A DNA stretch of 64,000 nucleotides from Bolinopsis microptera (taxonomy: Eukaryota; Ctenophora; Tentaculata; Lobata; Bolinopsidae), in contig NC_087079.1 in the NCBI RefSeq assembly GCF_026151205.1, positions 8,672,635-8,736,634 of the forward strand, given 5' to 3'. Of the stretch, positions 361 through 48,200 are shown one piece after another (position 1 is the first letter of the stretch; each line of letters starts with the position of its first letter). A program made the translations under genes and the position numbers. A model generated the notes under the pieces. That model made no database searches. It saw nothing but the letters and a program-made list of their open reading frames with translations, and was not told where the DNA came from.

Positions 361-370
361 CGTTACCTAC

Positions 371-14600: not shown

Positions 14601-17600
14601 TAAACTTTTGCTATATTACACACATCATCACCACCACCCAAGTTGTCTAACCTGTATCCTTCTTCACAACTATATCGATATGTTGTCGCAATATTGTTAC
14701 AGCCCTCACATAGTTGATTTTCAACCCAATCATTATCACTTATTTTGATTAATCTCCCGTTATCAATATCATGTTGAACCTCACATTCTGGTTCGCACTC
14801 TACACTAGATGGCCATACTGCTTGGCAATTGTTGCATCCATCTTCATAACAGCCTGAGCCATCATCAGCAGCAGCATCATCTGCTGCAGCATCATCTGCT
14901 GATTCACCACCATCAGCATTATTTTTGCAACTTCGACATGAGTCATCACTGCAATGGAGTTTCACATTTCCGTTTTCGCATAAAATATCGGAGATATCAA
15001 GTGTTGTTAATGCTCCGTTTGTAATCCTCAGTCCTCGAGGGATTGATAAGATCATATCTCTCATATGATCCATCATTTCTAGACCTGTTAGCTTGGTCAT
15101 CTCATACATTCCAAATTTACGGAATGCACCCTCAACTGTCTTACTGACTGTATCCATTTGAAATCTTTCCATTTTCCCGACCTGGGAGAAAAGTGGCAGA
15201 TAAAAGCCATTAGCCCATACAGTGTCACTTAAGTATTCAGAAAAATCAAAAGACATAGTGAGACGCTTTTCATCATCAGATAAGTTTTCACAGTTTTGAC
15301 CTTTTTCATCAATCTTATAAATGCCTTCTGTGACAAAACAGGCAACATCTTCCCATTCGAAATCATTCATGATGTCTGACCATGAACGGTCAAAGTCCTT
15401 GCAACTGTGTTCATGGATCTCTGAAAATTCTTCCATGACCAGGCACCCTAGCATTTCCAGGTTATAATCTGTAAAATCATCAAGGGACATATCCTCCAAG
15501 GAAAACTTGTCAGAACAGAAATTTTCAAATCTCTGTTTAACTTCCATAAATTCACAGAGGTACATTTCTATGTTTGCATTTACTTCATACTCTATATCTG
15601 CATCTATGGACGCCCCATAGCCTCCCCACACGCCATCAGAGTTTTTTTCCCTGGTATACCCGCCATTTAAACAACCTTCGGCGCTCTTTGGGACATTATC
15701 GAAAACTGTCACACTCTGATAAAAGCCACATGAGTGGCATCTTGGGAAATTGCTTTCAGAATTTATATCGAACCAAGTGCTGTAAGGGCACTTTTGACAG
15801 TTGCCGGATTTGGTTAGTCGATAACCACTCTCGGAATCGCAGCTCTCTGAACATTTAAATGATCCATCTGAGTCTATTTTTGGATCCGCTCCACATTCAG
15901 AACTGTCTCTGAATTTGTACGAATTTTCTTCCGAGTATTCAAATGATTCTCCGTCGTAGTATTCCACATCCTTTGCTTTATCAAGGTTTGATTCCACAGT
16001 TCCTTGCCCGGCATCATCGTCATAGAAAATCAAATGTATCATTATGGCACATTCTCCAGAAATAAGCGTGTTGCAGGTTGTGAAATGTGCCTCACATTCA
16101 TCACTTTCAAGGCAAGGGAAGGGCCAGTTGTATTGTACAAAATCTCTAAGTCTTGCCTCACCACCAAGACTCATACAGTCTTGAGATTTTCCTACGTATT
16201 GGATAAACACACTTTTTTTCAAAGATGGGGCATTCGTGTTATCTTTTACGCATTTGGTTCCCACTCCTTCCCATTCTGCAGAGCGATAACCATCCTCGCA
16301 ATGTTGGTTTAGGTGAACGTCAACACTCAAGATCTCCTCGTCTTTGACCCTGAGTTGATCGTGATTCATCTTCCACCCAAACTCTTTGAATGTCTCCGCA
16401 TTATTAAGCATGTCGAAGACGATTCTTGTGTAATGGTCAGCAAGAGAAGCATAGTCATTGATCGAGTCTTTGTAAGCTTTGAATTTCAATAAAAAGCCGT
16501 GAGCATGCACTGCAACGTTATTTGGTAGCATAGCCCGAACCTGAAGTTTGCTAAAGTGGTCTTTTTCGTCGTACTCAACAAATGCTTTTGCTTCGTAAAA
16601 GCTGATGCCAGATGCCTCCTTGAGAATATCATTCAAGAAAGACCAGTCACCAGTCATGTCAACTTCTACGGAAACCTCACTTTGAAAAGATCCTTCTCCA
16701 AACATTTCATCAGGATCAACGCAATCGCTTTCTTGTGTAGACCCAACCTGAAAAGTTGTTCCAACGTTGCAATATCCATAACAATATCCCTGCTCCTGGC
16801 CGTCTTCAAATTCGTCTGATGGACATGGAATGCATCTTGACTTTAAACCAAAATCGTCATCGTCTGCGAAATGACCTGCCGAACATGGTTTACAGTGACC
16901 GTTTGTGAAATCCCCTTCCCAGCCATGGCCATCTGGACACTTCATAACATGCTGGAATGGTAGCATCCAGTATTCTTCATCCCAGAAAAATTCGTCTTTA
17001 TCTGTGTCTAAATCTGAAACGTAACTATTTTAAATCCACTCTTTCGTGATTCATTTTGAGCGTTTTGATCATAAAGATTCGAGACTCGAAGTTTTTACCG
17101 AGATCGGCTTCATGGAATTCATTTTCGGTAGTTACACAAGCTTGAACTTAAAGCCGACTTAAGTTACATTTGAACCAATTTTTAAAACTTTAAAGATCCA
17201 TCCAGGTTGGTGAGTGAAAACGTCCGGATTGGTGAGTGAGAATGTCCGGGTTGGTGAGTGAGAATGTCCGGGTTGGTGAGTGAGAATGTCCGGGTTGGTG
17301 AGTGAGAATGTCCGGGTTGGTGAGTGAGAATGTCTGACGTCCCATTATTAGAACCAGGAAAATACATTGGTATCCTGGCCGGGAAATAAAATATTTGACA
17401 CGTGACGACTGACGGCGATTCTGAGAATTGATTGATCAATGTTGGAAGCTGATTGGTTAATGGCTGTCAATTTTCTTTAACATCTACTTTTTCCATAACG
17501 GCTTTTGGGCTACAGCAGTTGTACCTTACTATAACGCGCATCAAGGGGAGAAAGAATTTAGATACAAATTCTGTGTCATAGCGAGGTTCGCGTAATGTGT

Positions 17601-18201
17601 TATATAAGCAAGGTTTGATCTTGGAGGTGCATTATCACATATTATATCGCTTGTAAAACAAGCAGTTCTGAGGAGTTACATGCATACAGGTGCAATGTTT
17701 GGTGCACATATTGCATTCACTTGATGTTCTTATATATTGGAAGATCTCCGTTCGTATTTGTATGATAGGCAGGTTGAGCCAGTGCTATCCTGTTGTGTAT
17801 GTTTGCGTGGGCTACGTGGAACTGAAATGCACGGTTGGGGCCCAGCCGCCCAGTGTCTACTCATAATCCTGAATCCTTATCATTTAATTACCGAATCACA
17901 AATAACACCTCTAAAAATTGTATGCCGTGAAACAATACTGTTATATTATGGCAATATACTATTTGTCTTCCAACGTTGTGAGTTTGGTCTCAATTTGGGC
18001 ACTAGTAGTAGTGGGCTTCTAACGTGGAGATATACAATGTAATGCGCACCAGACAAGAATTTTATTCTTACCTAAGGTGTCTGCGTAGTCTTCAATCCTT
18101 TCAAATATCGCATTCACAGAGTTTTGATCCTCTGCCATATCCTCAGCCTCTTGAGCCATAGTGCACTGTAATAACAGTGCTAAACACAGTGCTCCAAGCA
18201 T
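8623..18201 (-). CDS. Secreted GCC2-like/CCP(sushi)/SRCR protein, distal tandem copy, complete
   Basis: Five minus-strand exons with matching phases: 18072-18201, 13470-17013, 11598-11751, 11268-11400, 8623-8834. Together they give about 1390 aa. Order: signal peptide (MLGALCLALLLQC), acidic linker, Cys-rich GCC2/ephrin-receptor-like module (~70-115), a long unassigned middle with a second Cys-rich module, and a copy-specific Asp/Ala-rich insert (~735-780). Then come five CCP-type repeats (~784-863, 864-924, 925-982, 983-1065, 1066-1133), then an SRCR domain (~1134-1276; CDDHFNGPAAGAICRSMGF, closed by exon 3). A C-terminal region of about 114 aa of unknown fold ends FWEPL. No transmembrane segment is seen, so I infer secretion. 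SRCR and CCP are protein- or ligand-binding modules; the specific partner is unknown. Introns 2 and 4 carry large transposons, yet every exon keeps clean splice sites and an open frame. Confidence 0.92.
8874..10841. mobile_element. Foldback-type DNA element with inverted arrays of GGTGGATA
   Basis: A 1968-bp unit flanked by TA on both sides. Its ends are inverted repeats beginning TGGGCACTTTCAAAAAC, followed in both arms by a CTGTCACGG block. The interior holds repeated TTTGGTGGATA motifs, mostly forward in the left part (near 8947, 9047, 9203, 9346, 9508). They are inverted as TATCCACCA in the right part (near 9736, 9942, 10098, 10309, 10461, 10603, 10631, 10765). No transposase ORF. It lies in intron 4 of the distal CCP/SRCR gene, its end only ~38 bases from the exon 5 acceptor. 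Confidence 0.85.
12087..12885. mobile_element. Foldback/MITE-like element with repeated ACTTCGCC motif
   Basis: A 799-bp unit flanked by TA, with terminal inverted repeats CCGTAGA(A/T)TGGGG. The motif GGGTAACTTCGCCA recurs near 12098, 12292, 12437, 12458 and 12515. It is inverted near 12272 and 12844. No ORF. It lies in intron 2 of the distal CCP/SRCR gene and has the same plan as the elements at 8874 and 19907 but an unrelated motif. Confidence 0.8.
17014..18071 (-). other. Intron 1 of the distal CCP/SRCR gene
   Basis: Donor TTAG|GTAAGA at 18071 and acceptor tttcag at 17014-17019 on the minus strand. It contains the 22-bp minisatellite (17205-17336) and no other recognisable feature. The plus-strand frame at 17737-18042 has no support. 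Confidence 0.85.
17205..17336. repeat. 22-bp minisatellite, six copies
   Basis: Unit GGTTGGTGAGTGAGAATGTC plus CG, repeated six times with few changes in the first and last units. It lies in intron 1 of the distal CCP/SRCR gene. Confidence 0.95.
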
Positions 18202-19906
18202 GCCAGCAAAATTTGTGTGTCCAGAATATCTCTCCGAACTTTCTTGCTAGGAATATTTGAAACTTTCAGGCTTGTATCACTATTTGTAAGCATCATAACT
18301 ACCGACGCTTTACTAATAGTATGAACAACTGTTGGTCCACTAAATAGGAATAATAAGCACAATGAAAACAAGGTGAAAAGTTCGAGGGTTTAGAAATTTT
18401 AAAATAAACTTAAAAGCGTTAAGAGAAATACGCCTGTCTGACCGAATTTTAAAAATGTCTGATACCAATGACCACACGATAAGATGATACCGGGTTCGCC
18501 ACGTCATCTATCAGGAACAAACTAAACTCTCGCAAAAACTCTTCGTTTTGTCTTGATCCACGTTCCTACATATATATATATTATAAGATCCGAGAATTTA
18601 TTACGACTGCCTTAATAACCCAACCGTTGAATGGAATTTTTATTTCGTTCATTTGTCACAACTCAAGACATTCCTTGACATACGTTGCATGCCACTTTTC
18701 GCGCGCAAAACATGTATCAAGACATTCCAATGATAACTGATAAAATTTAGAAATATGACACAAAACTGAAGTATAACACGCAAATTCCTCCGTATTTAGT
18801 GTAAAAGATATAAACAATGTGAATCAGAGGTAAAACGGAACTAGGCTACCATAACCAGTACCAATTCCGATAATCGTAACCGATAATTATCTCCGATAAT
18901 TCGTTTAAAGAAGTTATCTGTTTATCTAGATAAAATATATTTTTATCGGTATAAAAATTCAATAGAAATTATCAAAAAATACTGCCACAATACAGTGAAA
19001 TTTGAAGGAATTTTTAGTGGTTTTGCCTCTCTCTGTTGCCAAGTAATCCAAGAAACAGTCCCAAACGTCTTCTACTATTCTAGTATGATAAAAAAGGGGT
19101 AGTTTAGTTTAGTTTTTCATCATCATCATACATATGGAGTATTGATGAACTGTAGAAATCCAGAGAAGGTTATTGACATTGTTCTCTTGAGGATGGTGCT
19201 GGTATTTTACCTTATAATCATTCTATTTGGAGACAGGCAAGAGAATGTTACTGTTAACAGGAATCAGGAATACCGGCGCGGCATGGCACTCAATTGAATT
19301 CCGGAAGAGTTCAGGGTGATAAATTGTTTTCAGGGGAAGGATCTGTTGCTCCAAATTATCAACAGCTGAGACTGGAGAAGGAATTACAGTTTGCTGATGC
19401 TCTACTGTTCATGTTATCAGGAGAAAGAAAATATTTCGAGAAGAATGTACTGTTTTGAAGAGAATTGGTGCGCTACTGTTCTCGGGATAAGGAAACAAGC
19501 ACTCTACTGTTTTGAAGAGAACTGGTGCTCTACTGTTCTCAGGAGAAGGAACCCGGTGGTCTACTGTTGTGAAGAGAACTGGTGCTCTACTGTTTTCTGA
19601 AGAATGTGCACCCCTGTTCTCAGAATAAGAAAGCGTTAACTGCTGCACTAGTATTTGAAGAGAATTGGTGCACTACTGATTCCCGGAGAAGAAAACTGAT
19701 GAGCTTTAATATCTTCAGAAAAAAGGAAGTGGTGCTGTACAAAATTTACCAGTAAACAGTGATAAAAGTGAACAATTACTTTGATTGAAATTTAGAAAAC
19801 ATTTTGGCTTTTGCCTTCAGCAGAAAATTATCGCTTTTGTCTAGATAAAACCTATATCGTTATTTATGTATCTAGATAAAAAATTGCATACCGATAATGG
19901 ATATAT
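18202..19906. other. Gene-free stretch with diverged inverted GATAA-rich blocks
   Basis: No supported exon. GATAA-rich segments near 18870-18960 (containing tttatctagataaaa) are answered in inverted orientation near 19840-19900 (ttttatctagatac on the opposite strand). This suggests the arms of another decayed foldback element. A 57-bp tandem repeat lies between them. Confidence 0.5.
19385..19735. repeat. Diverged ~57-bp tandem repeat
   Basis: Repeated blocks of the type CTACTGTTTTGAAGAGAA, GGTGCTCTACTGTTCTCAGG, at least four degenerate units. Short frames on both strands follow the repeat period and are not taken as genes. Confidence 0.7.
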
Positions 19907-23997: not shown

Positions 23998-25060
23998 AGG
24001 TGGTGTGGTAGTCAGTGTTCAGGTGGTGTGGTAGTCAGTGTTCAGGTGGTGTGGTAGTCAGTGTTCAGGTGGTGTGGTAGTCAGTGTTCAGGTGGTGTGG
24101 TAGACAGTGTTCAGGTTGTGTGGTAGACAGTGTTCAGGTTGTGTGGTAGTCAGTGTTCAGGTGGTGTGGTAGTCAGTGTTCAGGTGGTGTGGTAGTCAGT
24201 GTTCAGGTGGTGTGGTAGTCAGTGTTCAGGTGGTGTGGTAGTCAGTGTTCAGGTGGTGTGGTAGTCAGTGTTCAGGTGGTGTGGTAGTCAGTGTTCAGGT
24301 GGTGTGGTAGTCAGTGTTCAGGTGGTGTGGTAGACAGTGTTCAGGTGGTGTGGTAGTCAGTGTTCAGGTGGTGTGGTAGACAGTGTTCAGGTGGTGTGGT
24401 AGACAGTGTTCAGGTGGTGTGGTAGTCAGTGTTCAGGTGGTGTGGTAGACAGTGTTCAGGTGGTGTGGTAGTCAGTGTTCAGGTGGTGTGGTAGACAGTG
24501 TTCAGGTGGTGTGGTAGACAGTGTTCAGGTGGTGTGGTAGTCAGTGTTCAGGTGGTGTGGTAGTCAGTGTTCAGGTGGTGTGGTAGACAGTGTTCAGGTG
24601 GTTTGGTAGTCAGTGTTTCAGGTGGTGTGGTAGTCAGTGTTCAGGTGGTGTGGTAGACAGTGTTCAGGTGGTGTGTAGTCAGTGTTCAGGGTGGTGTGGT
24701 AGTCAGTGTTCAGGTGGTGTGGTAGTCAGTGTCAGGTGTGTGGTAGGCAGTGTTCAGGTTGTGTGGTAGTCAGTGTACAGGTGTGGTAGTCAGTGTTCAG
24801 GTGGTGTGGTAGTCAGTGTTATGGGTAGGAAGTCATTGTTCAGGTGGTGTGGTAGTCAGTGTTCAGGTGGTGTGGTAGTCAGTGTTCAGGTGGTGTGGTA
24901 GTCAGTGTTCAGGTGGTGTGGTAGTCAGTGTTCAGGTGGTGTGGTAGTCAGTGTTCAGGTGGTGTGGTAGACAGTGTTCAGGTGGTGTGGTAGTCAGTGT
25001 TCAGGTGGTGTGGTAGACAGTGTTCAGGTGGTGTGGTAGTCAGTGTTCAGGTGGTGTTTT
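23998..25060. repeat. 23-bp minisatellite, roughly 45 copies
   Basis: Unit GTTCAGGTGGTGTGGTAGTCAGT with a common t/a variant at one position (agtcagt / agacagt). There are scattered slippage errors between about 24600 and 24840. It ends about 60 bases before the first recognisable cyclase exon. The repeat units abut each other with no spacers. Confidence 0.97.
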
Positions 25061-25121: not shown

Positions 25122-28100
25122 TTTTGTATGCTGACATCGTTAATTTCACCCTGATATCTTCATATCACTCTGCTACTGAAGTTGTCAACCTGCTCAATTA
25201 CCTGTTTTGTCTCATTGACAAACTCACAGATAAATATGAAGCTTTCAAGGTTCGTTCGATGTAATTAATTTGCATATTTTCTGCATATTTCAATTTACTT
25301 TAAATTATTTAGTATTCGGTATTTAGTCCTAACAAAAACATATATTAACTCCGATAAAGCTGGGTTAAACAGATTTGTAATCTAATAAACATATTTCAAC
25401 TCCTAGGCCGACACTGTAGGTGATGCCTACGTAGCGGTGACTGGCTTGCCAACATGTGGAAGCAAAGCGACAAGCGAGAGTGTGACTAACATTGCCCACT
25501 TGGCTCTAGAAATGTTGGGACAGCTAAATAATCTGGACCACGAGAATGAATCCATGTGCGAGGTGGGTTTACAGTTTGGATCAATGGCGTAACTAAGGAC
25601 CCCCCAGACCCCGCTACGCGGGAGGTGGTCCGCTATCAAGGGGGGGGGGGTCACTTTTTCCCCGAATTGTAAGTCTTTTTTACGAAAAATCGTCTGGTTT
25701 GGTAGCAAAATGTACCATATTCCGGCCAACTTAACGTTAAATCCGACGCAAAAAAACAATAAGGTTGATATTGAATAGATTAATGTTCAATATTCATGTA
25801 CAAGAGCCTTATGGCCTGCAATAAGCTTTAAAGTTGAAACGCGATCACAATTTTCGTATGTGCAAATTCTAAAAACAACGTTGATATTGATTATATACCT
25901 TATTGGACATTATTTGACCGGACATTGCCTGAACGGGCATTATTTTGAAAGAACATTAAAATCAACGCTTGAAAGCATTCATTTAATGTATTTAATTTAA
26001 ATACCTCGTCGAACTTTATTTGAACGGACATTGAAATGAACGCTAGGGCCTCCAGCGTCCGATTAACGTCCGTTAAAATAAAGTCCGATAAGGTATATTT
26101 ATTATGTATAATATAGAGCCCGTGGTCACAGGGATGATTTAAATTATACCCAAACGGCCTAGTTCAGGTTAATAAACTTTTTCTTTGCTACATATGGATG
26201 AAACCACAGATAATCATTATGTTTACTTTTATTCTCCAAACAGTTATCTCCTTCAATTCTACTTATCACCTCATCAGACACTTTCCAATGATGATGGTCA
26301 CAATAAATTCCTTTTTAATACAGTCCTTTTTAAAATATTCTAGATTTATCTTAAAATTATTTACACTATAAGAATTCTTAACATCCACTGGTAGTATAGG
26401 GCATCCACTGGTAGTATAGGGCATTCCAATAAGGTATAACTTTCTCAGATAGAAAAGCTTTACGAAGATTTCTTAATTTAGAGCTTTTGATATTGCACTA
26501 TACCTTTGAAACAATATTCATACCCGATCTACTAATATTGAAAATATCCGAACCATATTCTACTAAACCACTGACTATTTTAAAGGTTTCTATAAGATCC
26601 CCACGGATTCTTCTAAGCTAATATTAATATAGGATTCTTTTTTGAAAGTTCGGTCACAGGCCTGTTTTGGTCACGTGACAGCAGACAAGCTTGTAAACCA
26701 AAAATTCGACTGTGTAGAGTTGGGGTCGTTTTTAAGGTTTTGGTTAGCTTCGGGGTTAGGGTTAGGGTTATAATTATGTAAAACTGTTTTGTTCGGCTGC
26801 AAAACCGTAAAAACACATCACGTGATAATTTTTGGGCGAGCGAAATAATAAGAGCTAAACCTCAAAGCAAGCCAAATCCTGATTATCTACTGCTTATTTG
26901 TGACACATTTTACATCAATGTATTTATTGTATTACAATTGCATGTATACGAAAGCAAAATATCTACAATGAGGCAACAACATGATTTATAAAGGTTAGGA
27001 AAATATTAATAAAACTCAACACTACCAGACTGCAGCTGGAGTAAGAAAAATGTATGTAAAACATTAGTAAAATTTATTTCGGCTTAACCAAAACACTGCA
27101 GTCAAACCATAATGACATTCATGCCGATTCAAGATAATGAATATAACGATTTCGTGCCAGGTGAAACTCCGGATAGGCCTTGCAACTGGACCAGTCTCTG
27201 TGGGAATGATCGGAATGAAGATTCCTAAATATTGTGTTTTCGGTGAGACGGTTAACTTGGCCACTGCGATGGAAGAGCGCAGTCAAGGTAACAAACGTCG
27301 TTAATTTGTATACAGAATATATTGAAATACTACCTCACTCTATTTTCGATCGCTCTAATTTGTTTATGATCATATTGTTTGTCCCGTTCATAACTATTGG
27401 CCTTTATCTTCGTGGACCCAAAATTCTTGCACGAACCGCATGTCATACTCATATTCCTAACGTAAGTTGGTAATTCGTATTTTATCCATTCTTGCATCAC
27501 GTTTTTCAGCTATGAGGATCCTGATTACTAAGTATACTCGAAATTTCCTGGCGGACACGGGAATATTTGAGACGCTCTTCCGCGGACAGTTCAAAATCGT
27601 AAGTTAATTCCATTGTATAGAAATGTATGCCATTTTATGCCATTTTGGAGTTTAAAATAAAAAAAACCAATCTTGTCATAGTTTGAGCCTTAGAGAACGA
27701 TATAAATTGAATTTAATATTCATCTAGAATCTAATTATATCATCTTAAACGCCAAAATGTAATTTTTTGCCATTTTTATCGTATTTTCGACTTTTAAAAT
27801 TTTTCATAAATTCGGTACTAAACGCGAGTTTTTTAATTAAGCACGTTATATTTTAACCACACAAATTTACAGAATTAAAACAGGTCACTCCGCTTGAATG
27901 AATACGTATTCTAATTCTATGTTGTAATACGTGTTAATAAAAATTCGAATTTAGTTGAAGCGATTCTTGTACAAAATATTTTGAAATAACGTATAGTTAT
28001 GAAGTCCACGCAGAACAATACTGCCGGGCAGAAGATAGTGGTTGAAAATATATAGGCATTTAACGTTTATCTTAACCTAAACCTAATTATAAATCTCGTA

Positions 28101-31100
28101 AAGACAAGCGTGAGTTTTTAACATTGACGTGGTAGTATGCAGGGACGTAGCCAGGATTTTTCTTTGAGGGGGGCTGTCGGCGAGCGAAGCGAGCCGACGT
28201 ATCCAATCCAGCTGCGCAGCGAGTGAAGCGGGCAAGCTGTGGCAAGGGTCTGGGGGCGGAGCCCCTTGGCGGGGGCTAGGGGGGCGCAGCCCCCCGGAAA
28301 TTTTTTGCGAAACAGGGTGTTTTAGACGACATTTGGCATTAAAGAAATTTGTAGGACAGCAATAAACTGGGATTGAAAAGAATCAAGTACTCACGTAAAT
28401 TTGGTAACTTCACAACAGCAATCTGCATTCTCCAATCAGAATTTACGACTTACTCAGGCCTCATCGTCTTAAGATTTTTACATTTCCTACGGTCTAGGGG
28501 ACACTATTGACTATTTATAGAAGTCTTCTAGAATGTTTGCTTGGATGTTATGACAGATATTTACTAATCCACAGTTCAAATCTTTGACTGACTGCAGTCA
28601 TAAACACAGCCCAGTTACCAGGCGACCATGGGGACTAGGGGGCTTATCTTTTTTCTGGGGTTCGATTTTTTCCGGGGGGGGCTGCCGCCCCCCTAGCCCC
28701 CCCTGTTTACGTGCCTGGTAGTATGGAGCATCACTAAACTATTACTAAGTATGGAGCTCTCGACAGATAAAGTGAATAAAGGCAAATAACTTGCGAAAAC
28801 TAAATGAAATCTTAGTGTTACACAACAAATAAAACACGCGCAATTTAGAATTTATGTTATATATTTGCATAAAATTATTGGAATGGGAGACTGCCGTACG
28901 GGGAACCATATGATCTGTTCATGGGACCGTGAGACATCGGGTCACAAGCAGAAAATAAAAGGGAAATATTTTTCGAACTAGAGTGCGCTACCTGGACTCC
29001 AGTTTGACACGTAAGTTCGACTGGGCTGATTTCTGGCGAACTTAAGCGAGCGTGTTAAATCACTCTACAATCGATCTTCGAATTTTTTTTTTTTTTTTCG
29101 AATCATATACTTATATAACTAGTGAATTAATTGAAGCCAAGAACTGTAAGTCAGGTTCCGTGTAACGGGCAAACTTTCAGACTTTGTAACCTAATTTTTG
29201 GTGATAAGCCGGAAGCCTGCTTATTGCTGTTTAATATTTGGTATATTATTGGTATATATTTATTATTTGCAGGCTCTATTACTATTTCAATTTGCAATAG
29301 AGCCTTCCGTATACGCGAAACTCATTGAATCGCACGACCGAAGATTACCCTCCCGATGATCATGAACTACAACTTAATCTATATTTTTGCAATATACTCA
29401 TATACGAGAAAGCGAATAGATCAACGGTAAAGAAGTCATCCCTCGCCTAGAGTCATCAATCTCATCATTGCCGTGGGCATTAAAATTGGCCCCTGCTACC
29501 TCCACACTGACAACACACATCCGGCGGCCTCAGAGCTAATAATACGGGCACGTTTAATAGTATTAAAATTTCGGAAAATGTTCGGTATTCGGTGATCCGA
29601 CGAGCGTGCTAAATCACTCTACAGTCGATCTTCGAGATTGTTCTAAAAGGGCCCCGACAGTTGAAACTAACTTTAAAATGCTCCCCTGACATGATATTGG
29701 CGAAAAACTGTCTCGATCACGTGATATGACCGTATTAAGAAGTTAGTCTAATTTCTCGTTAGGGTTAGGGTTTCAGCATATGATTTTGTTTAGGATTGGG
29801 TTAGGGTTAGGGTTGGGATCAGATTAAAGGGTTAGGGTTTCGAATAGTCGTTCAGGACCAGCTAGAGAACGGGTTGAAAAAGTCACGTGACAGTCGAGTG
29901 TAGAGTGATTAATTATCATCCGTGATCCGAACATATTCGGTCAAGCGAATATTAAAATACTCGGCCGACCGAATATATTCGATAGCGAATACCGAATACT
30001 ACCGAATACCGAATATTTGAAGATATGGTAACCCTAGTCGGGACATAATCTCTCAGTTTCATGCATTCTTATAGTACGGCACCAGTCAGTCGGGCACGTG
30101 GTCACCGAGTGACGCAGTCACGAGGTACAGTCAGCTGATAAATAACGTGACCAATATTAGCCAGCGAGAAGGGCTGGATTACATGCTTAAGCAAAATTAG
30201 ATTCACAGCTCACAATTCACATCCCTATGGTACGGCACCAGTAAGTCAGGCACGTGGTCACCGAGTGACGCAGTCACGAGGTACAGTCTAACAGTCAGCT
30301 GATAGATAACGTGACCAATATTAGCCAGCGAGAAGGGCTGGATTACATGCTTAAGCAAAATTAGATTCACAATTCACATCCTTATAGTTTGAGTAAACAT
30401 GAAGAGTTGGCCAAGCTTAAAATATGAAATATTAAGCGTCTTCTTTGATATCGATACTTACCACTTACATTTATTCCGTACTGTACTCAATAAATGTAAC
30501 TCACGTGACAAAAGTGCGCTGTCCAATAGCAGTTAGTTAAGCTGTCATGTGACAACCACGAGAGTAACACGATGGTAGCAGCATGGTAGGATGCTCATTG
30601 GACAATGAACACTTTAATTGTGTCCGAAGTAGATACAGTTTTTTGCCAATTTGACACGGTTAGACTGCACCAAATTTCAAAATTTTGGTCGAAAAATGTT
30701 CCCAAGACAACTCTTGTCTTGACTCTTGTGCCGTACCATAAGCAATTTATAAAACTTACCTTATTACCCTAGCTTCTGCAGGTCTATTTTACCCATATAT
30801 ACAGACTTTTGGCCCACCCTGTATAATATATATATTGCAAATGATATGGCAAAGTGTTGTTGCGGTAATAGCGCAGTTCTGCAGCCGACATAAACAAGTG
30901 TAACCGTTAATTTTGTCACAAGAAAACTTAAGCTTAGTAAGGAAATAAAATAAAAAATCGTAGTTTCCCGCTCAGAACCTGAACAGTGTTACAATCAGGA
31001 CGATACAATAGTAGACACGTATTGGCTGGTGGGGAGCTCCTGCATCGACAAGGGTCTCGACATATTCAACAGCAACCAGAACAAGAAGGGGGGAGGAGTC

Positions 31101-31283
31101 CTGAACAAGCGTATAAAACAGAAACAGATGGACCAAGTGCCGCCTCCCTACGAAGACGCAACCCCGATGGTTCCTGTAGTGAGTGGGGTAGAAACACAGC
31201 CTCAAGGTAAAGATCGGCTGACGACAGTTCTCGGATCTGCTGTGATTGGTGGGGAAAAGGAAATCCCTGTTTCTGAAACATAA
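25122..31283 (+). CDS. Receptor-type guanylyl cyclase catalytic domain (N-terminal part not found), probably inactive alone
   Basis: Five exons joined in frame: 25122-25249, 25407-25562, 27161-27287, 27510-27598, 30999-31283, about 260 codons to a TAA. They spell a class III cyclase domain: LYADIVNFT (metal aspartate), KADTVGDAYVAVTGLP (second metal aspartate), VKLRIGLATGPVSVG, KYCVFGETVNLATAME, and DTYWLVG at the end. The Cys of KYC is the guanine-recognition residue of guanylyl cyclases; the paired Glu (usual KVETIGD) is Asp here. Family members have N-x3-R for the ribose contact and transition-state Arg; here it is N-L-A-T-A, so the Arg is Ala. A ~75-aa tail contains VPPPYED (PPxY) and ends PVSET. 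Kinase-homology and receptor parts are not visible upstream, where a minisatellite and transposons lie. A frame also stays open upstream to about 25060, so the first exon boundary is uncertain. Either an incomplete or pseudoenzyme gene, or earlier exons lie far upstream. Confidence 0.88.
25583..25680. mobile_element. Fragment of a hAT-like MITE
   Basis: Starts CAATGGCGTAACTAAGG and has G/C-rich arms (ccccccagaccccgc and a G run near 25640), resembling hAT-type ends. It lies in the intron after the second cyclase exon. The right end was not found. Confidence 0.4.
25898..26093. mobile_element. Pogo-type MITE (short derivative of the element at 43246-44135)
   Basis: A 196-bp unit with TA on both sides. 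Ends CCTTATTGGAC and GTCCGATAAGG are inverted repeats, and the interior shares GAACGGACATT and GAACGCTAGGGCCTCCAGCG with the larger element. Located in the intron between the second and third cyclase exons. Confidence 0.85.
26690..26790. repeat. Partial TTAGGG-bearing MITE fragment
   Basis: Contains gtgtagagt and gggttagggttagggtta, as in the elements at 29610-29912 and 37359-37721, but lacks clear ends. Inside a cyclase intron. Confidence 0.5.
28140..28717. mobile_element. Non-autonomous hAT-type element, copy 2
   Basis: A 578-bp relative of 4769-5324, same orientation, with ends CAGGGACGTAGCCAGG and TACGTGCCTG and a perfect 8-bp target-site duplication GTAGTATG (28132-28139 and 28718-28725). 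No ORF of its own. It lies in the last cyclase intron. Confidence 0.93.
29041..29088. repeat. Terminal fragment of the TAATCACTCTAC MITE
   Basis: Contains GAGCGTGTTAAATCACTCTAC and gatcttcga, matching the left end of the copy at 29610-29912. No second end was found. Confidence 0.6.
29610..29912. mobile_element. MITE with TAATCACTCTACA ends and internal TTAGGG repeats, copy 1
   Basis: A 303-bp unit. Inverted ends TAAATCACTCTACAGTCGA and TCGAGTGTAGAGTGATTAA, with an AGTCACGTGACAG block near the right end and gttagggttaggg tracts inside. A second copy in opposite orientation is at 37359-37721. It lies in the last cyclase intron. Confidence 0.75.
30068..30742. mobile_element. Element with TATRGTACGGCAC inverted ends and an internal duplication
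   Basis: The left end CTTATAGTACGGCAC is the near-inverse of GTGCCGTACCATAAG at the right end. The left side holds two ~140-157-bp direct copies (30070-30207 and 30225-30382). Sequence matching the right end recurs inverted near 42770-42830. It ends about 250 bases before the final cyclase exon. Confidence 0.6.
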
Positions 31284-31782
31284 GGAAACTGTTTTACCAG
31301 TGTATTGTTGCGATATTACTGATCACAAGAATGATTTAATAGACCTCCTTCGAGAGCTTACTAAAACTCCATGAAATGTGCCGGCTTGTAAATTGTTTCA
31401 ACTTTGAAGACCAAAACTTGGTTATGAGAAATTTACCTTTAAAACTTTGATTTGAATTACGTTTTGCGCAGTGTGCTGGTTTTAAGTAACAATTGATAAT
31501 CGTCGCTTGCTGAACGCATACATGTGTCATTATTTACAAATAATACAGTATAAAATTCAGAATATACAATTTACTAAAAACTCAGCTACAAGGCTAGCAG
31601 CACAGTTATTTGCTCTCCGACAATGTCTTATCTTACAAAATATGGGAGTAACATATATAATTGCGGAACTAAGAAACGATTTGCAAAACTGGTGACGAAT
31701 CCACAGTAAGGTTACTTTTCGGAGATGATAGCAAAAGAATGTCCATATAGTGGAGTACCTCCTGTACTAATGTATCTAGTGT

Positions 31783-31875
31783 TCAGAGGACGTTACATTT
31801 GGCACAGCAGCCTTCATCTTGCTCTGGTGGTGGAGGGGGTGGTGGTGGTGGTGGTCCACCGTCTGGGGGTTTCAT
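31783..31875 (-). CDS. Small proline-rich CaaX protein 1 (30 aa)
   Basis: A single minus-strand frame of 30 codons plus TGA: MKPPDGG, ten consecutive prolines, then EQDEGCCAKCNVL. The last four residues CNVL form a CaaX box, and a leucine at the end predicts geranylgeranylation. The extra cysteines just before are possible palmitoylation sites. It is too short to be convincing alone. Its support is position and likeness to four neighbours on the same strand with the same layout (low-complexity body, acidic or Gly spacer, GCC, aliphatic tail). No intron was needed. Function unknown: a lipid-anchored peptide at the inner membrane face is inferred. Confidence 0.65.
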   Translation of the reverse strand: MKPPDGGPPPPPPPPPPEQDEGCCAKCNVL

Positions 31876-32520
31876 TTTGAATTAGTTTATAAATCTATAA
31901 ATCATTTGACTAGTGAAATTCCAGTCACGTTTGGTTGATACGAAACTGTTTTCATTTCATATTTTGTGGTATAAATGAAGAAAGAACTTTCAAACATCTT
32001 CTATCGTTCTATAAAAATAATTAAGGCAAGTTTTAAAATATGAACCGAGACAAGTTTCTGAACCAAATTAAAGAAAAAATATAATTCCAAACAATCTACA
32101 GCCACTAAAAGTGCGAAAATAAAAAGGCTGAAGTATTTGCAATAAGTTTTAGAGTCCTTGATCAGTCGCTCACACACACACGCCATATGATGATTACGCT
32201 TAAAGTTAAAACGCATCAGAGCCAATAAAAAATCGGCCGACGATCACTGCTTAGCAATTTAAACTCAGTCCGCTCCCTTCTTGGGTGTTAATGTGTTCAC
32301 TTTGCTAAGTCGGTCATTGCACCTAGTTCTAATTCAATAAGTCCGGCCAAACCCCATAACCAGGAGTTCAGGACAAGTTCTGAAAGTATCGGGTGATGGT
32401 TGTGATGTTGGGTTGCTCCGCAAAGGAACCGTACAACACTCTAAAGTTAAACTTGCTCTGCATTTGATTAGAGTTTCTGCCCCGGAGTTTGGATCGTCGT
32501 AGGACGTGTGTGTAAAACCT

Positions 32521-32865
32521 TCACAACAGAATACAGCACCCCTGTTCACTAGGGGGCTCTGCTTCGGGTCCCCCATTATTTCCCACCGGTGCTGCCTCTC
32601 CCTCTGCCCCTGCGAATATGTGAGCTTTAGAAGGTGCTTTGTGAGTTTGAAAGTTGCTTGTGAGATTGTGGTGAAATCTCTTTGTCAGAAAGGCGTTATA
32701 TTTATAGCTAGCTTATCAGTTATAATTGTGTAATAACCGATATTTTAACTTCTCACCTCCTTCTTGGGGCTTTGGTTCGTCTTTTTTCTCAGCTGCAGGT
32801 TTAGGTTCAGGTTCTTTAGAGCCTCCTGGGGCTGGGGTGCCCCCTGGTTTTCCTCCTTCTGGCAT
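32521..32865 (-). CDS. Small Gly/Pro/Glu/Lys-rich CaaX protein 2 (65 aa)
   Basis: Two minus-strand exons, 32757-32865 and 32521-32609, joined G|GG (donor GGAG|GTGAGA, acceptor attcgcag). The N-terminal exon starts MPEGGKPGGTPAPGG and is rich in Lys, Pro and Glu. The second exon runs through GNNGGPEAEPPSEQG to CCILL and a TGA. C-terminal CILL is a CaaX box expected to be geranylgeranylated, with an adjacent Cys for possible palmitoylation. The body is predicted disordered. The phase-1 intron before the lipidation exon is shared with proteins 3 and 4. No known family recognised. Confidence 0.85.
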
Positions 32866-33185
32866 TCTATACAAAGATATAAAGTTTGGTTCGTGCTAAA
32901 CAATAGATAGCTGACAAGATTTTATATTGAAAATGCAAATCGTTTTATTTCACCTTATCTTATATGTTTTAGGTGAATCATTAACGAGTCAGTAATGAAT
33001 AACATTGTCAAATTTTAATCGAGCAAACATTCTTTACGCTTCTTTCAGCAGGGATTTAAGTTACACATTAAATTTTCAATGAGCAGTAAATAATGTTATC
33101 TTGAAGCGAATCTGGATTTTGGTCCATATAAAACACAGCCATTTAACTCCATAGAATTCTTCTCCACAGCCGGGCTGCCGGGCTA

Positions 33186-33649
33186 TCAGAGGATGATGCA
33201 GCAGCCTTTGTCCTCTTGTTCCCCCTCGTGATGTCCACCTTCTCCGCCGCCTCCATGACCTGCGATTCATTGGTAGTTGCACGCTTTATACTGTGAGAAT
33301 GTGTTTTATGCTGAGACTAAAATTAAATTATTTCTCGTATGAGATCGAAAATTCAATCTCCGACTGTACTGGGAAAATTCAAAGTTAGCGGTTGATAATA
33401 CCGAATAAGAGGACTAAAAGCACATTTGAATTCCAGAATAACAAAAAAAGTGATTCCAGCCGCCAACTTAAAACCTTCTTGCCTTAAAGATATGGGAAAG
33501 ATATGAACAAAAATTGGAATGGGTTAAGCCGAAGCGTGAGGATTTCACCCTGATCAATTCATGAAAAAGGTTCATAACTCACCGCCACCACCACCACCAC
33601 CACCGCCTCCATGACCTTGTTCACCACCACTTCGTCCACCACCTGGCAT
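33186..33649 (-). CDS. Small Gly/His-rich CaaX protein 3 (46 aa)
   Basis: Two minus-strand exons, 33583-33649 and 33186-33259, joined G|GT (donor GGCG|GTGAGT, acceptor aatcgcag). It begins MPGGGRSGGEQGHGG, continues as a glycine run, then a Gly/His/Glu segment, and ends DKGCCIIL followed by TGA. CIIL is a CaaX box preceded by a second cysteine. His and Glu could bind metal, but that is speculation. Same start (MPxGG), intron phase and tail as neighbours 2 and 4, so these are paralogues. Confidence 0.85.
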
Positions 33650-34059
33650 TTTGTACGCTTGCTAGAGAAAAGATACTTTTCAGTAATAAATAATTAAATT
33701 ATGGCTGCTTTGATGATTTAATCATGATTCATGACAAAAGGTACGGGAAAAAATAAATAAATGATATAATAAAAAATAAATAAATAATATACCTTAAGAA
33801 TAAAATGGTGTGATGAATGCATATATGTATGTAATTTCATAAATCTTCATTTCAAATATTATCAATAAAATTAAAACTGAAGTCTCAAGAATTAACTAAT
33901 ATTTTTAAATTTATTCGCTCTGACACATGAATAGATACTTATTACAAAATAGCACTCATATGCAAACTTTCCAATGTCCATCTGACGTATTTCAAATTAG
34001 AAAAATGTCATTATGTCCGGTTTATCAGCTTTGGCGGAAATCTTCTCACCGACTGTTGG

Positions 34060-34681
34060 CTACAAAATAACACAGCAACAACCTGATTGAAATGGTAAGT
34101 TTGTAACATTTATCAGATAATGGTAACCACTGGCTGTGATGCTTTTGAATAAAACTCAAGCGTATAAACATGTGCTCAATTAGTGCTGTCAACTTACAGA
34201 GCAGACACGGACATGACTCCAGTGAGCACGACTTGGATCCTGGTAGCCCTTTTCAAAAATGAGCTGATACGACGGAGACCGAATACAAAAAGGTGGAAGT
34301 AAAAAGACGTTTTTCTGTCTTTTTTAGTTTAGGTGCTCAGCAAACACGCCCAATGTAAATTGGAAAATAATAACTTAATAAGTTAATAACTAATTACAGT
34401 GGCTTAGTGGCTATTTCATATGTTTTGAATGAGCAAAATATGATAGACTGCCCCTTTTAGTTTCATCAGAAGTTTGAATATTTCCTTTTTGCTCATATCA
34501 CCTATTGAAATTTGAAAACAATATTAGATTCAGCGTCCGGGTTCCCCGATTCTACTGAATACAGAACAAATGTGCTGTAGAGTTTAGACGGACAACTTTC
34601 TAACCCACCTCGTCTTTCTTCGTGATGTCCACTGTGACCGTGTCCACCACCGTGACCGCCGCTGTGTCCACCGGGAGGCAT
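34060..34681 (-). CDS. Small Gly/His-rich CaaX protein 4 (31 aa)
   Basis: Two minus-strand exons, 34609-34681 and 34060-34082, joined G|GT (donor CGAG|GTGGGT, acceptor tcaatcag). The first exon encodes MPPGGHSGG and a Gly/His repeat ending HHEERR; the 23-nt second exon adds only GCCCVIL and a TAG. CVIL is a CaaX box with two more cysteines before it. The last exon carries nothing except the lipidation signal, which shows that the exon boundary separates body and anchor. Confidence 0.8.
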
Positions 34682-35099
34682 TTTTTCGGTTACTTATCTT
34701 GCTAACAAAAATAGAGTTAGTTGACTACATAATATAATTTGGTTTTAAAAAGCTTCAAAAGTGAGCTAAACTGTTCAATTGTCGTGAATTTTCCCTTTAT
34801 AAATGACGAAAATATCATTTCCAATCGTAAAATCGTAAAAGTATCTTACATAACAAGATAGAATAATAACTTACTACAATTAGTTCTGAATAACTCTCGT
34901 TTATTTCAAATAAATCTTATCTATCGAAGAATATATTTCTTGTAAAATCAAAAATGTTTATGTAAAATGTAAATATAAGCCAAAGCGACGATGATAGTAA
35001 AATATTGTCAACTGGAAGTTTAAATTAACGATAGCAAAAAGCAAAACCACTATAAATTCGAGATTTAAAATATTGATGCGACAAGTCCTGCTTGAGTTA

Positions 35100-35537
35100 T
35101 CAAATAATAACACAGCAAAGTGGTTCCCTCCTGCGTGGGGGAGGTGGTGGGTGAGGAGGGTGACCTGGAGGTGGTGGGTGAGGAGGGTGACCCGGAGGAG
35201 GTGGGCGAGGTCCCGCACGCGCAGGGTGGTATCTTGAGTGTCCTGGTGGTGGCACTCCTGCTCGCTGTCTAGGATAACTTCCAGAATATCCTGACAAGTA
35301 AGGGTCTTGTGGAGTGTTGTGAAGGTTGTTAGGTGACATCTGATAAGTTGGTGTAGCATATGCACTTGCAGCAGGGCTCTGTGATGGAGTTCTTGTGGCT
35401 GGTCTCGGACTTTGAAATTGATATCGTTGATGAACTTGAGGCACCGTTGTGGATTGTTCAGGGGCTGGAGCTTGCCCATTGAACTCTGTATAGGGAGGTG
35501 GTGGGTCGTCAGGATCTTGGTCAAGGTTCCTCGACAT
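35100..35537 (-). CDS. Proline-rich PPPY/CaaX protein 5 (145 aa)
   Basis: A single-exon minus-strand frame, ATG at 35535-35537, stop at 35100. It begins MSRNLDQDPDDPPPPYTEF, with a PPPY motif (the WW-domain ligand PPxY). It continues with a Gln/Ser/Pro/Thr-rich segment and Tyr-containing repeats, and finishes in a Pro/His-rich block with GHPPHPPPP repeated twice. The tail is EPLCCVII: CVII is a CaaX box with an adjacent Cys. By analogy with known CaaX proteins it should be prenylated and membrane-attached. The largest member of the cluster; the others lack PPPY. An overlapping 188-codon frame in another register is treated as a shadow. Confidence 0.87.
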   Translation of the reverse strand: MSRNLDQDPDDPPPPYTEFNGQAPAPEQSTTVPQVHQRYQFQSPRPATRTPSQSPAASAYATPTYQMSPNNLHNTPQDPYLSGYSGSYPRQRAGVPPPGHSRYHPARAGPRPPPPGHPPHPPPPGHPPHPPPPPRRREPLCCVII

Positions 35538-36774
35538 GATCGAACTTGATAGTGAAATCTGTCTCCGTTAGCTCTACCACAGACCAGTGCTATAAAGGAA
35601 ACACAAATTGCTGTATCTGCGATGAACAGCTGAAGAACATGACTGTGTTTACGGCATTGTGTTTACTTCGATCACAACACATCATGCCCACGCAGGATGT
35701 GTGATCAAATCATGACATTGGTAGAATTGTAACCAAACTTATTTTAAACAAGAGTCAGCCTACAAATATGTTTGTACTTTTAATGTGACTGTGTTCAACT
35801 GTCTTGCTGAAAATGTCTTTGGTCAAAGACTTAAAAAAGTTTCCAGATGGATGAGCAAGCGTATTCAAGTGCAACACGATCTCTTTGTTAATACTTAAAC
35901 CTTCAGGAAAGTATTTCAACACTTTGTAAGCATCAAAACATAAATATTTTATTTATAATGCGGTTGATGTTACGACAGAATGAAGACCAGATCAATGAGA
36001 TAGTGAAATATTTGCGCACCATTGTGGAATTTCAACCGTTTCAAATAATTGAAAGGATACGAGTATGTGGTTGTAGTTGTACGTATGTGGTTGTCTTGCT
36101 GGTGCGATTATTAATTATTATTCAATAGGATATTATATTCTCCGATGTCTAAATACAGGGTGTACCGCATAAAGTGTGACTTTTATTCTACTTTAATAGT
36201 TTTTGACAAAATTAAACTTCACGTTATTTTTAACTAAATTTTAACTAAACTAATAAAAACGTTTTAAAGACCTTCCTCAAAATTCTGCCCGGACAATCTC
36301 TTTTAAATGATCCCTAAATATATTTTGAAAGTTTCAGGGTGATAGATCAAAAACAATTGGAGAAAAAAGATTTTTAGACTCGATTTTCACTACGCGAGAT
36401 AAACTCGATTTTCACTACGCGCGATAGAGAGTTACTCTTTTCTATCAAAAACAACTAAAATGTCGATTTCGAAAATTTTTTGTTGAGACCCCTTAATTAC
36501 AGCAAGCTTAAGTTCCTGAGAGTGAGGTAGCACCATAATATTATTTAAGATGCGTACCAATGCATTGTGATTGAAACTTAGTATATCTATATGAAGTGAT
36601 TTATCAGTAATGAGATTATTATTGGAAGTATAGATAAAATACACAGGTTCGTACGCTAAACAATTATATACCTTTTTCTGATTGGTTAACGTTTAAAGCG
36701 AACAATCTTAATTATATAAACAGCCTATCTGTGGCAAGTTCAAAATCAATGTTATTATGTTAATATCCTATAAT
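35538..36774. other. Gene-free stretch upstream of CaaX protein 5
   Basis: Probably includes the promoter of CaaX protein 5. Otherwise AT-rich; a doubled ctcgattttcactacgcg segment sits near 36379-36421. No exon supported. Confidence 0.5.
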
Positions 36775-45200: not shown

Positions 45201-48200
45201 TTTTTTTATTGAAAATCTTTTCAAAATAGTACATACATCAATGTAATTGCATGAAAATAACACGGTCAAAAAGTGATTTCTATGTACTATAATGACGGGA
45301 AACCAGAACGTAGTTCGTGCAAAAATTACACCTACAAAATATGGTCCCTGACAAAACATTTCATACAATCAACACATATAAATGTAAGATATATAGCAAT
45401 AGAGATGATTGTGCAATAATAAAATACAGCGTGCATAAAATATCATAATGTTAATAATTTGTTAACTTTTTAATGAAATAGATTATATCATACAATACTT
45501 TTAAAAACCCAACCCACAACCCAACCCACCCCTAACCCCTTAAATAGTTTGGATCGGTTATTTTAGATTAGAGAATTGGCATTGGGAGAAATGAGATGCA
45601 TCTAATCATTATCAGACAGGTAGAATTCAGCGTGACTATCGTTTGGATCTGTGGGTAGCATTTCCGACCATAGGTGATCCTTAAGTTTGGCCTTGAAGAT
45701 ATCAGGACAGCTATGGTCTCTTATTTCGAGAGGAAGTTTATTCCAGAGCAGATGTGTCCGATAAAAGAATGATTTCTTAAGGAGACTGCTATTACACTGT
45801 GTTTGAACAAGAGTCGTTACATAACTTAGGCTGTCATGGTGACATGATCTTAAGCGTGTGCTTCCTTTGTATAGTTGTAAGTAATTAGGAAGCTCTTGTG
45901 TGCATACACCATTGACTATTTTGTGAAACAAGGTCAGGTCATTCAATTCAAACCTCTTGCTGAGAGGAAGGATTTTCAATTGATGACATTTGTAAGTATA
46001 GTTTTCAAAGGACTGATAGCTTGTGAATTCCTCATCAAAAATCCACTTAATACACCTTTTTTGAAAATACATAACAGTAATAGTTTTATAGTTTTAGCCG
46101 TATAGTAAACAGTAGCTATCTTAAACTAATTATTTTTATAATCCAACATAATTGCCACTGCAATTCTACTGTAACGAGGTAAAGGCTACCATCATTTTCT
46201 GACCTATTCGTACCGTCAACCTTTTGAACTCGTTAGCCGTTAAAAAATCTTATATTTGAAAACTAGACGTCTGACCTCCACTTCCCTTAACACCTAGCTG
46301 AAGTATTAACTAGTTAATTGACCCTGCCTGCTTGACACCAAGTCGGCAGCGAACAGTTATCATAATAAAGTTATAACAATAAAAATACACTTCAGGAGGA
46401 TGTTTCCACACTTTTTCAGTCTCGCACATCTTGACAATTGGTGCTATTATTATCGAATATTAAACTGTAATTATAATTATGTCGCATGTAATTGCGATAC
46501 TGCTGACCAATCCTGTGGGGATATTCTTAGTTTTAGAAAAGTAATCTCGCCACGGCTTCCTCTTAATGAATTATCTGTGATTAAGTTCGAGCAATTTGTA
46601 ATGTGTGCAATCCTCCGATTCATTCTCTTGCAGCCGTAATTCTTCATATTTAAGATCACGGACTTTTGAGAGAAAGAATTCAACAAAATCCTGTTTCATT
46701 AATTCTTGTTTTTACATTAGATTCGATGATGTTTACTTTCATCTGCATGCGTACATAACTGTGTTGAATAATAATCGAGTCTTTTCGTTATTGATCGGAG
46801 TTTGAGATCATTTAGTCAACGGATATATATTCTTGAAGCACCTGGCAGTTGACAATGATGCTGTAAGATCGTTTATGATACCGGTATTAGGCACGCCCAC
46901 ACCGCGTACGTCGGTTACACATCACCTCGGTGATGCTAGAATACTCCACAGATACACAGTAATATCTACTAATACACTCACGGCAGATGTGCCTTAACAA
47001 ATGCACTTTTTTCTAAATGGGTATCACTAATAGCAACCGGTACTTAACTTTAGGATTTCTTTAGATGCCTGGCATAGTCATGATATTTTACGAAAGCTTC
47101 ATTAGCACTTAAAGTATAAAGGATACGCTCTCCAATTACGCATTTTGCTGCACAGATAATGAATCGACTCCTCGAGTTGATGGTTACTGGAATCCCATTA
47201 TCCCAGTTTAATTGGCCATGAAGGACAATGCCGCTCGCAAAGATTGATAGACGTCTGGAGCTGATTGGTGCCCACTGCTCCTGAGTCCAACATGGAAATG
47301 TAAGAGCACCACTGGTTATTTGTAACCTCTGGTTATTCGTCCTTATCACTTATGAGTTTATCTTTTTTTTTCAAGCACCATTTTTTACCGTTGGGTATAT
47401 GTCCTAGAGTACTCGTTTGCATAGATTTACTGGATTTACTGATAAATGATCCAGGAGAGCATCATACTGAATCAGGACTCAGGATAGTTTTCTTCCATTT
47501 ACCAACACGCTTTTGAATTCCTTAGGAAATATGTAGTTGCACTTGTACCTCAGTTCCCACAATATAAATATAGTCAATTCCTATTTAAGAAGAATTACCA
47601 TTGTTATTGTCTAATCGTTGAATTGTATCTACTTTAATAGTCTACAGTGCTCAACTAATCAAGTTTACCTTTAGACAACCCGCACTTCTATTCTATTATG
47701 TATTGTTCTACTATAACTACCACTATTACTACTATGTATCCTGGATGGCTGATATGTATCGAGTTTAAGGATAGCTAGTCATTTACCTTTTGTGGCGCAT
47801 GACTAGGCTTTCTTAAAGTGACTCGCTGATGACACATCAGCTGTCTTTCTCCCTTCGCTCGCTCTATTTCTCTCTCGTTCTCTGTTATGACTGCTTATCT
47901 TGGTGAAAGGTTAAGAAGCAGTGCAATTTTGAAATTTGTTGTCAGCAAGTTCTTAAGCATTTACTTGGCTAGCAGCAAAAATTACGACATCAAACGTGCT
48001 CCGCATTTCACTTTGAGATCCTGCTCTCGTATGGCTTTTCTTCACAGTACACTGTCTTCTTGTATCGTGCTATAATCGCTGTTAGTATGTTGGTAAATTT
48101 GTACTGTCTTTATCTAGGAGTTGTTACGCTAGTTGTATACTCATCAGTACACATTTTCAAATAATGAAGGTGGTAATGCCCGCCCATGGAAGTACCGCTC

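Follow-up and report, generated by a model that had tools for sequence, protein, structure and literature searches.

Can frames as short as 30 codons, read from one strand of an animal chromosome, form a set of genes, and if so, what kind of proteins would they encode? The question is raised by a locus of the ctenophore Bolinopsis microptera, in which five small minus-strand frames, here called genes A to E, end in cysteine-rich CaaX-type tails. The locus lies in a 64,000-nucleotide stretch of contig NC_087079.1 (positions 8,672,635 to 8,736,634 of the forward strand), referred to below as the window; all positions are those of the window unless a contig is named. Coding sequences of only 30-65 codons tend to escape annotation. 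In this work, the minus strand of positions 31000-36500 was re-read, with exons placed by script, and the resulting models were compared with simulated windows, with the whole assembly (264,652,675 bases in 232 contigs) and with collections of protein and RNA families. On balance, we lean towards the view that the five frames are ctenophore coding genes for short, probably disordered, membrane-tethered docking proteins.

Gene models and tails

The five genes fall within positions 31783-35537 (Table 1), and the frames, tails and end coordinates proposed in the initial annotation were recovered. The introns of genes B, C and D, of 526, 323 and 147 nt, respectively, are all of the GT-AG type, stand in phase 1 and split a Gly codon. 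The proteins of the same three genes begin with MPPGG, MPGGG and MPEGG, which bears out the MPxGG start and phase-1 intron that had been described as common to three members of the cluster. The accompanying claim that this intron sets the anchor on an exon of its own is correct for gene B; the second exons of C and D encode 24 and 29 residues including the split Gly and thereby add 18 and 23 residues of the protein body. For gene B, two further upstream AGs likewise preserve the frame of the tail, so that the acceptor given in Table 1 is the likeliest, not the sole, choice. An aliphatic CaaX end with at least one extra cysteine, formerly ascribed to all five proteins, is found in A-D (CVII, CVIL, CIIL and CILL, respectively), and the CNVL end of gene E is only partly canonical.

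The protein bodies are of low complexity. Gene A encodes the N-terminus DDPPPPYTEF, which carries a PPxY motif; proline accounts for 40 of its 145 residues, and a 27-nt tandem repeat inside the gene (2.6 copies) encodes the unit GHPPHPPPP. Histidine makes up 6 of the 31 residues of protein B and 4 of the 46 residues of protein C, and is absent from D and E. An in-frame stop precedes the ATG of gene A, the frame being open from position 35567, and an in-frame TAA is located three codons 5' of the ATG of gene E.

Table 1. Exons of genes A-E in window coordinates, with encoded sequences, splice signals and protein ends (a slash marks the exon-intron border)
Feature	Position	Strand	Encoded sequence	Signals	Whole protein and its end
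Gene A, single exon	35537-35100	-			145 aa, RRREPLCCVII
Gene B, exon 1	34681-34609	-	MPPGGHSGGHGGGHGHSGHHEERR(G)	donor GAG/GTGGGT	
Gene B, exon 2	34082-34060	-	(G)CCCVIL stop, anchor only	acceptor TTTCAATCAG	31 aa, RRGCCCVIL
Gene C, exon 1	33649-33583	-	MPGGGRSGGEQGHGGGGGGGGG(G)	donor GCG/GTGAGT	
Gene C, exon 2	33259-33186	-	(G)HGGGGEGGHHEGEQEDKGCCIIL stop		46 aa, DKGCCIIL
Gene D, exon 1	32865-32757	-	MPEGGKPGGTPAPGGSKEPEPKPAAEKKDEPKPQEG(G)	donor GAG/GTGAGA; TATAG 1 nt before ATG	
Gene D, exon 2	32609-32521	-	(G)AEGEAAPVGNNGGPEAEPPSEQGCCILL stop		65 aa, EQGCCILL
Gene E, single exon	31875-31783	-	MKPPDGG-P10-EQDEGCCAKCNVL		30 aa, DEGCCAKCNVL

Clustering, copies and transcript signals

Plain CaaX-like ends occur 32 times in the six frames of the window, with A-D contributing four of them and E lying outside that pattern. 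The stricter pattern CC[ILVMF]{3}stop was found four times; all four matches are minus-strand, lie no more than 2.6 kb apart and belong to the cluster, and the rest of the window has none. In 300 simulated windows generated from the 4-mer statistics of the real one, the mean number of such tails was 0.27 and the maximum 3; at most two of them stood on one strand within 3 kb, which happened in a single simulated window. Moreover, a phase-1 acceptor leading to a CC-aliphatic tail within 700 nt past the end of exon 1 is present in three of three genes (B, C and D), as compared with 0 of 2342 overlapping control stretches taken from the window and 5 of 6000 from simulation; these statistics are post hoc, since the tail pattern was set after the tails were known and gene E misses it, and the margin is large. 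The cluster pattern thus looks real.

The signal resides in the clustering and not in the tail itself, because the latter is little or not enriched genome-wide. The CC-aliphatic tail pattern TGYTGYRTHHTNHTNTRR gave 379 matches versus 382 for the reversed control, and its GCC form GGNTGYTGYNTNHTNHTNTRR gave 31 versus 16, a roughly twofold excess; a narrow tail pattern, which catches gene C and misses gene D, gave 6 versus 2. No second cluster was seen among the listed matches of these searches or of the CCxxC search described below. The 31 matches to GGNTGYTGYNTNHTNHTNTRR include genes C and D, and the other 29 were inspected by eye. Seven of these terminate in TGG, a codon that fits the pattern and is not a stop. 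One match (L013, C5:8635055) is the end of a Ras-family GTPase terminating in SSGCCVLL (Pfam Ras, E = 8.5e-16); for all others, the open stretch before the tail spans 6-79 codons, or 6-43 where the stop is real. By eye, with a Pfam scan for L013 only, none of these others has a cluster-like body, and two of them, L029 (RPGGSWGGYGCCFFF) and L022 (GSGRGAGCCFLL, without a stop), are mildly Gly-rich. Since an A preceding the match creates a phase-1 AG in 8 of the 29, and an AG stands directly before the match in two (L005 and L027), spliced tail exons resembling that of gene B are possible at these sites. For the CCxxC tail pattern, 206 matches were obtained versus 52 in the control, many of the listed places belonging to a 48-nt tandem repeat; no clear relative was recognized by eye in the eight matches inspected.

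The locus is single-copy. A protein search of the genome with gene A returned only gene A, and a DNA search with positions 31700-35700 returned the locus itself together with two stretches of about 75 nt on contig C1, which match the repeat part of gene A at 76-77% identity.

Strong acceptor-like sequences precede the start codons of two genes: TTTTTGTTAG, with 10 of 12 pyrimidines, lies 20 nt before the ATG of gene B, and TCTTTTCTCTAG, with 11 of 12, lies 12 nt before that of gene C. At least 10 pyrimidines are found before 3.3% of the 2325 ATGs in the window, and at least 8 before 25%. Such sites are expected of trans-spliced mRNAs. The intergenic distances amount to 320-645 nt, and only about 80 nt separate the first AATAAA behind gene C from the ATG of gene D, so that hardly any space remains for a promoter; this tight spacing fits trans-spliced, possibly polycistronic, transcription.

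Spliced leaders have been reported for another ctenophore, Hormiphora, where 56% of Iso-Seq reads carry a leader with the mostly conserved end AATTTGAG (PMC8527503). The genome of B. microptera uses spliced leaders as well. The pattern AATTTGAGGT matched 1697 sites genome-wide versus 901 in the control, and two of 20 inspected sites (L035 and L041) proved leader-like; a longer pattern built from these two, ACACTACT...ACAAATAATTTGAGGT, yielded 253 matches versus none in the control. Part of these matches belong to a tandem array of spliced-leader genes with a unit of about 591 bp, of which two units were inspected, at C3:13511056-13533390 (L059). With the SmY RNA model, two units score 26 bits, below the cut-off of 39, and a dispersed leader copy (L060) gave no SmY match.

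A proposed membrane-tethered role and its alternatives

A CaaX box with Leu at the X position directs geranylgeranylation, and palmitoylation, which is possible at a cysteine next to it, makes membrane binding stable; these modifications, the further processing of CaaX ends and the pairing of short motifs with their partners are general knowledge. In the mechanism that we propose, the CaaX cysteine would be prenylated, by geranylgeranylation in B-E, where X is Leu, and by a prenyl group that the Ile of gene A leaves ambiguous. The -aaX residues would then be clipped and the end methylated, and palmitoylation of the adjoining cysteine or cysteines would hold the chain on the membrane. The bodies, presumably disordered as judged from their composition, would expose short linear motifs or ligands for ions at the surface of the membrane. 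Protein A would offer its PPxY motif for docking of WW-domain or NEDD4-type ligase partners, along with a Pro-rich stretch, and the ten-proline run of E could serve as a ligand of the profilin, SH3 or EVH1 type; the His-Gly runs of B and C could bind divalent metals, and D would present a charged Pro/Glu/Lys stretch. The frames, splice signals, tails and clustering are seen directly in the sequence, whereas expression, lipidation, disorder and partners are inferred; lipidation of the five proteins is likely, and the partners are guessed from the motifs.

The prenyltransferase beta family is represented in the genome by three loci with six matched stretches. The CaaX end with an adjoining cysteine is shared with the tails of Ras/Rho GTPases, and the GCCVLL end of L013, a Ras-family GTPase of the same genome, fits the dual-lipid reading. 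The cluster proteins differ from these GTPases in having no GTPase domain, as the initial annotation maintained and the Pfam scan agrees.

Further observations count partly for and partly against docking proteins of this kind. The a1 position of the CaaX box in gene E is Asn. After training on the long frames 367-3804 and 13466-17029 of the window, a codon score placed exon 1 of gene D first among all segments of 17.1-64 kb (16.9), and exon 2 of D (10.1), A (9.7), E (9.5) and exon 1 of B (8.8) were among the 60 best segments; the exons of gene C, however, are outside these 60, the frame opposite gene A scores 12.2 versus 9.7 for A itself, and the scores may be raised by the G/P/E-rich composition. 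Given the absence of C from the list and the higher score of the frame opposite A, the codon score provides weak support. The sites before the start codons are also weak at A (8 pyrimidines), D (8, at 1 nt before the ATG) and E (6). The first AATAAA follows the stop codon at 194 nt in A, 144 nt in B and 236 nt in C, but in D and E it comes only after 2045 and 1307 nt, and as the hexamer is common on the minus strand anyway, about once every 820 nt (78 in 64 kb), its presence near A-C is modest evidence. Finally, B and C have a common core, GGHGGG-G-HHE, that exceeds what composition explains (its score is attained in 10 of 1000 shuffles, this being one of ten pairs tested), whereas the other nine pairs, all involving A, D or E, do not (130-993 of 1000 shuffles). 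Because the bodies of these nine pairs show no likeness in excess of composition, common ancestry of all five genes is not established; a common origin would rest on the tails and on the MPxGG start and phase-1 introns of three genes.

A bolder form of the proposal would see a ctenophore-specific, spliced-leader-resolved cluster of minimal membrane adaptors, each combining a doubly lipidated tail with one docking or ion-binding stretch and all evolved side by side; we regard this as doubtful. Proteins pared down to a lipid tail and a short disordered ligand would offer a natural way of testing the minimal sequence for a membrane adaptor, and the locus may represent a case of new genes arising in what may be the sister lineage of the remaining animals.

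Among the alternatives to membrane-tethered docking proteins, membrane-bound metal buffers come first. The His- and Gly-rich proteins B and C might capture Zn, Cu or Ni at the membrane much as plant HIPPs do, with which they share the CaaX end and a His-rich putative metal-binding stretch, and their His content agrees with such a role. We nevertheless consider it improbable, as D and E are devoid of His, no HMA match was obtained for the cluster proteins, and only two of the five genes would be covered.

According to another explanation, the products would give rise to lipopeptide signals, prenylation and trimming of a precursor being followed by export. Very short CaaX-ended genes in a tandem set recall fungal a-factor-type pheromone precursors, which are encoded by tiny CaaX-ended genes that may be clustered; the Bolinopsis cluster differs by its low-complexity bodies, extra cysteines and animal genome. 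No processing sites are recognizable by eye in these bodies, the presence of two or three cysteines speaks for stable attachment to a membrane, and gene A encodes 145 amino acids with a PPxY motif, all of which makes exported signals very improbable. To our knowledge, no a-factor-like prenyl peptides have been described in animals, and the cluster, if its adaptor reading is true and the products are also secreted, would supply them.

We give still less credence to chance open frames in low-complexity DNA. They would agree with the parity of CC-aliphatic tails and their reversed control across the genome, with the noise-like appearance, by eye, of nearly all outside GCC-aliphatic matches and with the abundance of plain CaaX ends in the window, but neither simulation nor control came anywhere near four tails in 2.6 kb of one strand or three spliced phase-1 tails. 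It is scarcely credible, too, that the five are terminal exons or leftovers of some larger gene, for example a small GTPase: although a genuine Ras-family GTPase of this genome ends in GCCVLL and we take the CCxxC tail of gene E to resemble that of Rap2, none of the five proteins has a GTPase match, each has an ATG of its own, in-frame stops precede A and E, and the gene recognized downstream, a guanylate cyclase, is read from the opposite strand.

Relatives, precedents and surroundings

The searches for relatives, which covered Pfam (all five proteins), the PDB (A, D and E) and bacterial and archaeal genomes (A), revealed none. Pfam produced no family for A-D up to E = 1, the short chains and the HMMER filters limiting sensitivity, and for gene E only CR_prot_dom_plant (E = 0.57), far below the cut-off; no Ras, BEX, HMA, GGL (G-protein gamma), RING or CYSTM match was found in the five proteins. 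In the PDB, there was nothing for A (up to E = 0.1) or D (up to E = 1), and gene E gave a chance match at E = 5. In bacterial and archaeal genomes, searched with gene A only, none of 508 pattern matches was confirmed. Recent tandem duplication was considered and rejected for want of blastn similarity between the five gene segments, which yielded only overlaps of the segments themselves and short chance matches (the best of 13 nt, E = 0.12).

In part of its build, gene A is reminiscent of lipidated or Cys-rich PPxY proteins of the RNF11 and CYSTM types, sharing a PPPPY N-terminus, a Pro-rich body and a C-terminal Cys pair, but it has no RING or CYSTM match. Titles and abstract openings of the open-licence literature searched contain no description of a family like the cluster. 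On ctenophore CaaX boxes and prenylation, the relevant work concerns Rho GTPases (PMC7600811).

The initial annotation knew of no described family with such a build, but a precedent exists in the BEX proteins of mammals (PMC4303428), which are encoded in tandem at Xq22, are small, intrinsically disordered and CaaX-ended, with the role of the tail unknown, and are further treated in PMC5108325. The likeness is one of build, not of ancestry: tandem, small, low-complexity CaaX proteins, with the disorder of the five judged from composition. None of the five has a BEX sequence match (Pfam up to E = 1). Also, BEX genes are located on both strands and hold the whole protein in one exon, and the consulted sections of PMC4303428 do not mention an extra Cys beside the CaaX box or Gly/Pro/His bodies such as those of the cluster. 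The build therefore has a precedent in BEX, and what seems new is that the proteins have a double cysteine, are extremely short and come from a ctenophore.

The window contains no tRNA and no Rfam family at gathering score, and a bacterial promoter scan of it is uninformative for animal DNA. A guanylate cyclase gene on the plus strand (25407-31283) converges on gene E. Its catalytic exons were identified at 25407-25568 (E = 1e-5) and 27176-27277 (E = 1.1e-9); the frame 30975-31283 (VDTYWLVG), which has no Pfam match and carries a PPPYEDA motif of its own, presumably represents the C-terminal end. Two minus-strand frames of 1145 and 1187 codons, 367-3804 and 13466-17029, are closely similar and evidently form a duplicated pair; both have a sushi match above the cut-off, and 367-3804 also has an SRCR match below it. 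Two shorter minus-strand frames recall mobile elements: a 163-codon frame (45602-46093), without a Pfam match, resembles the C-terminus of non-LTR retrotransposon proteins, and a 55-codon frame (18079-18243) matches the transposase helix-turn-helix HTH_Tnp_ISL3 at 19.1 bits, below the cut-off of 27.4. A minisatellite composed of 46 copies of a 23-bp unit occupies positions 23998-25057.

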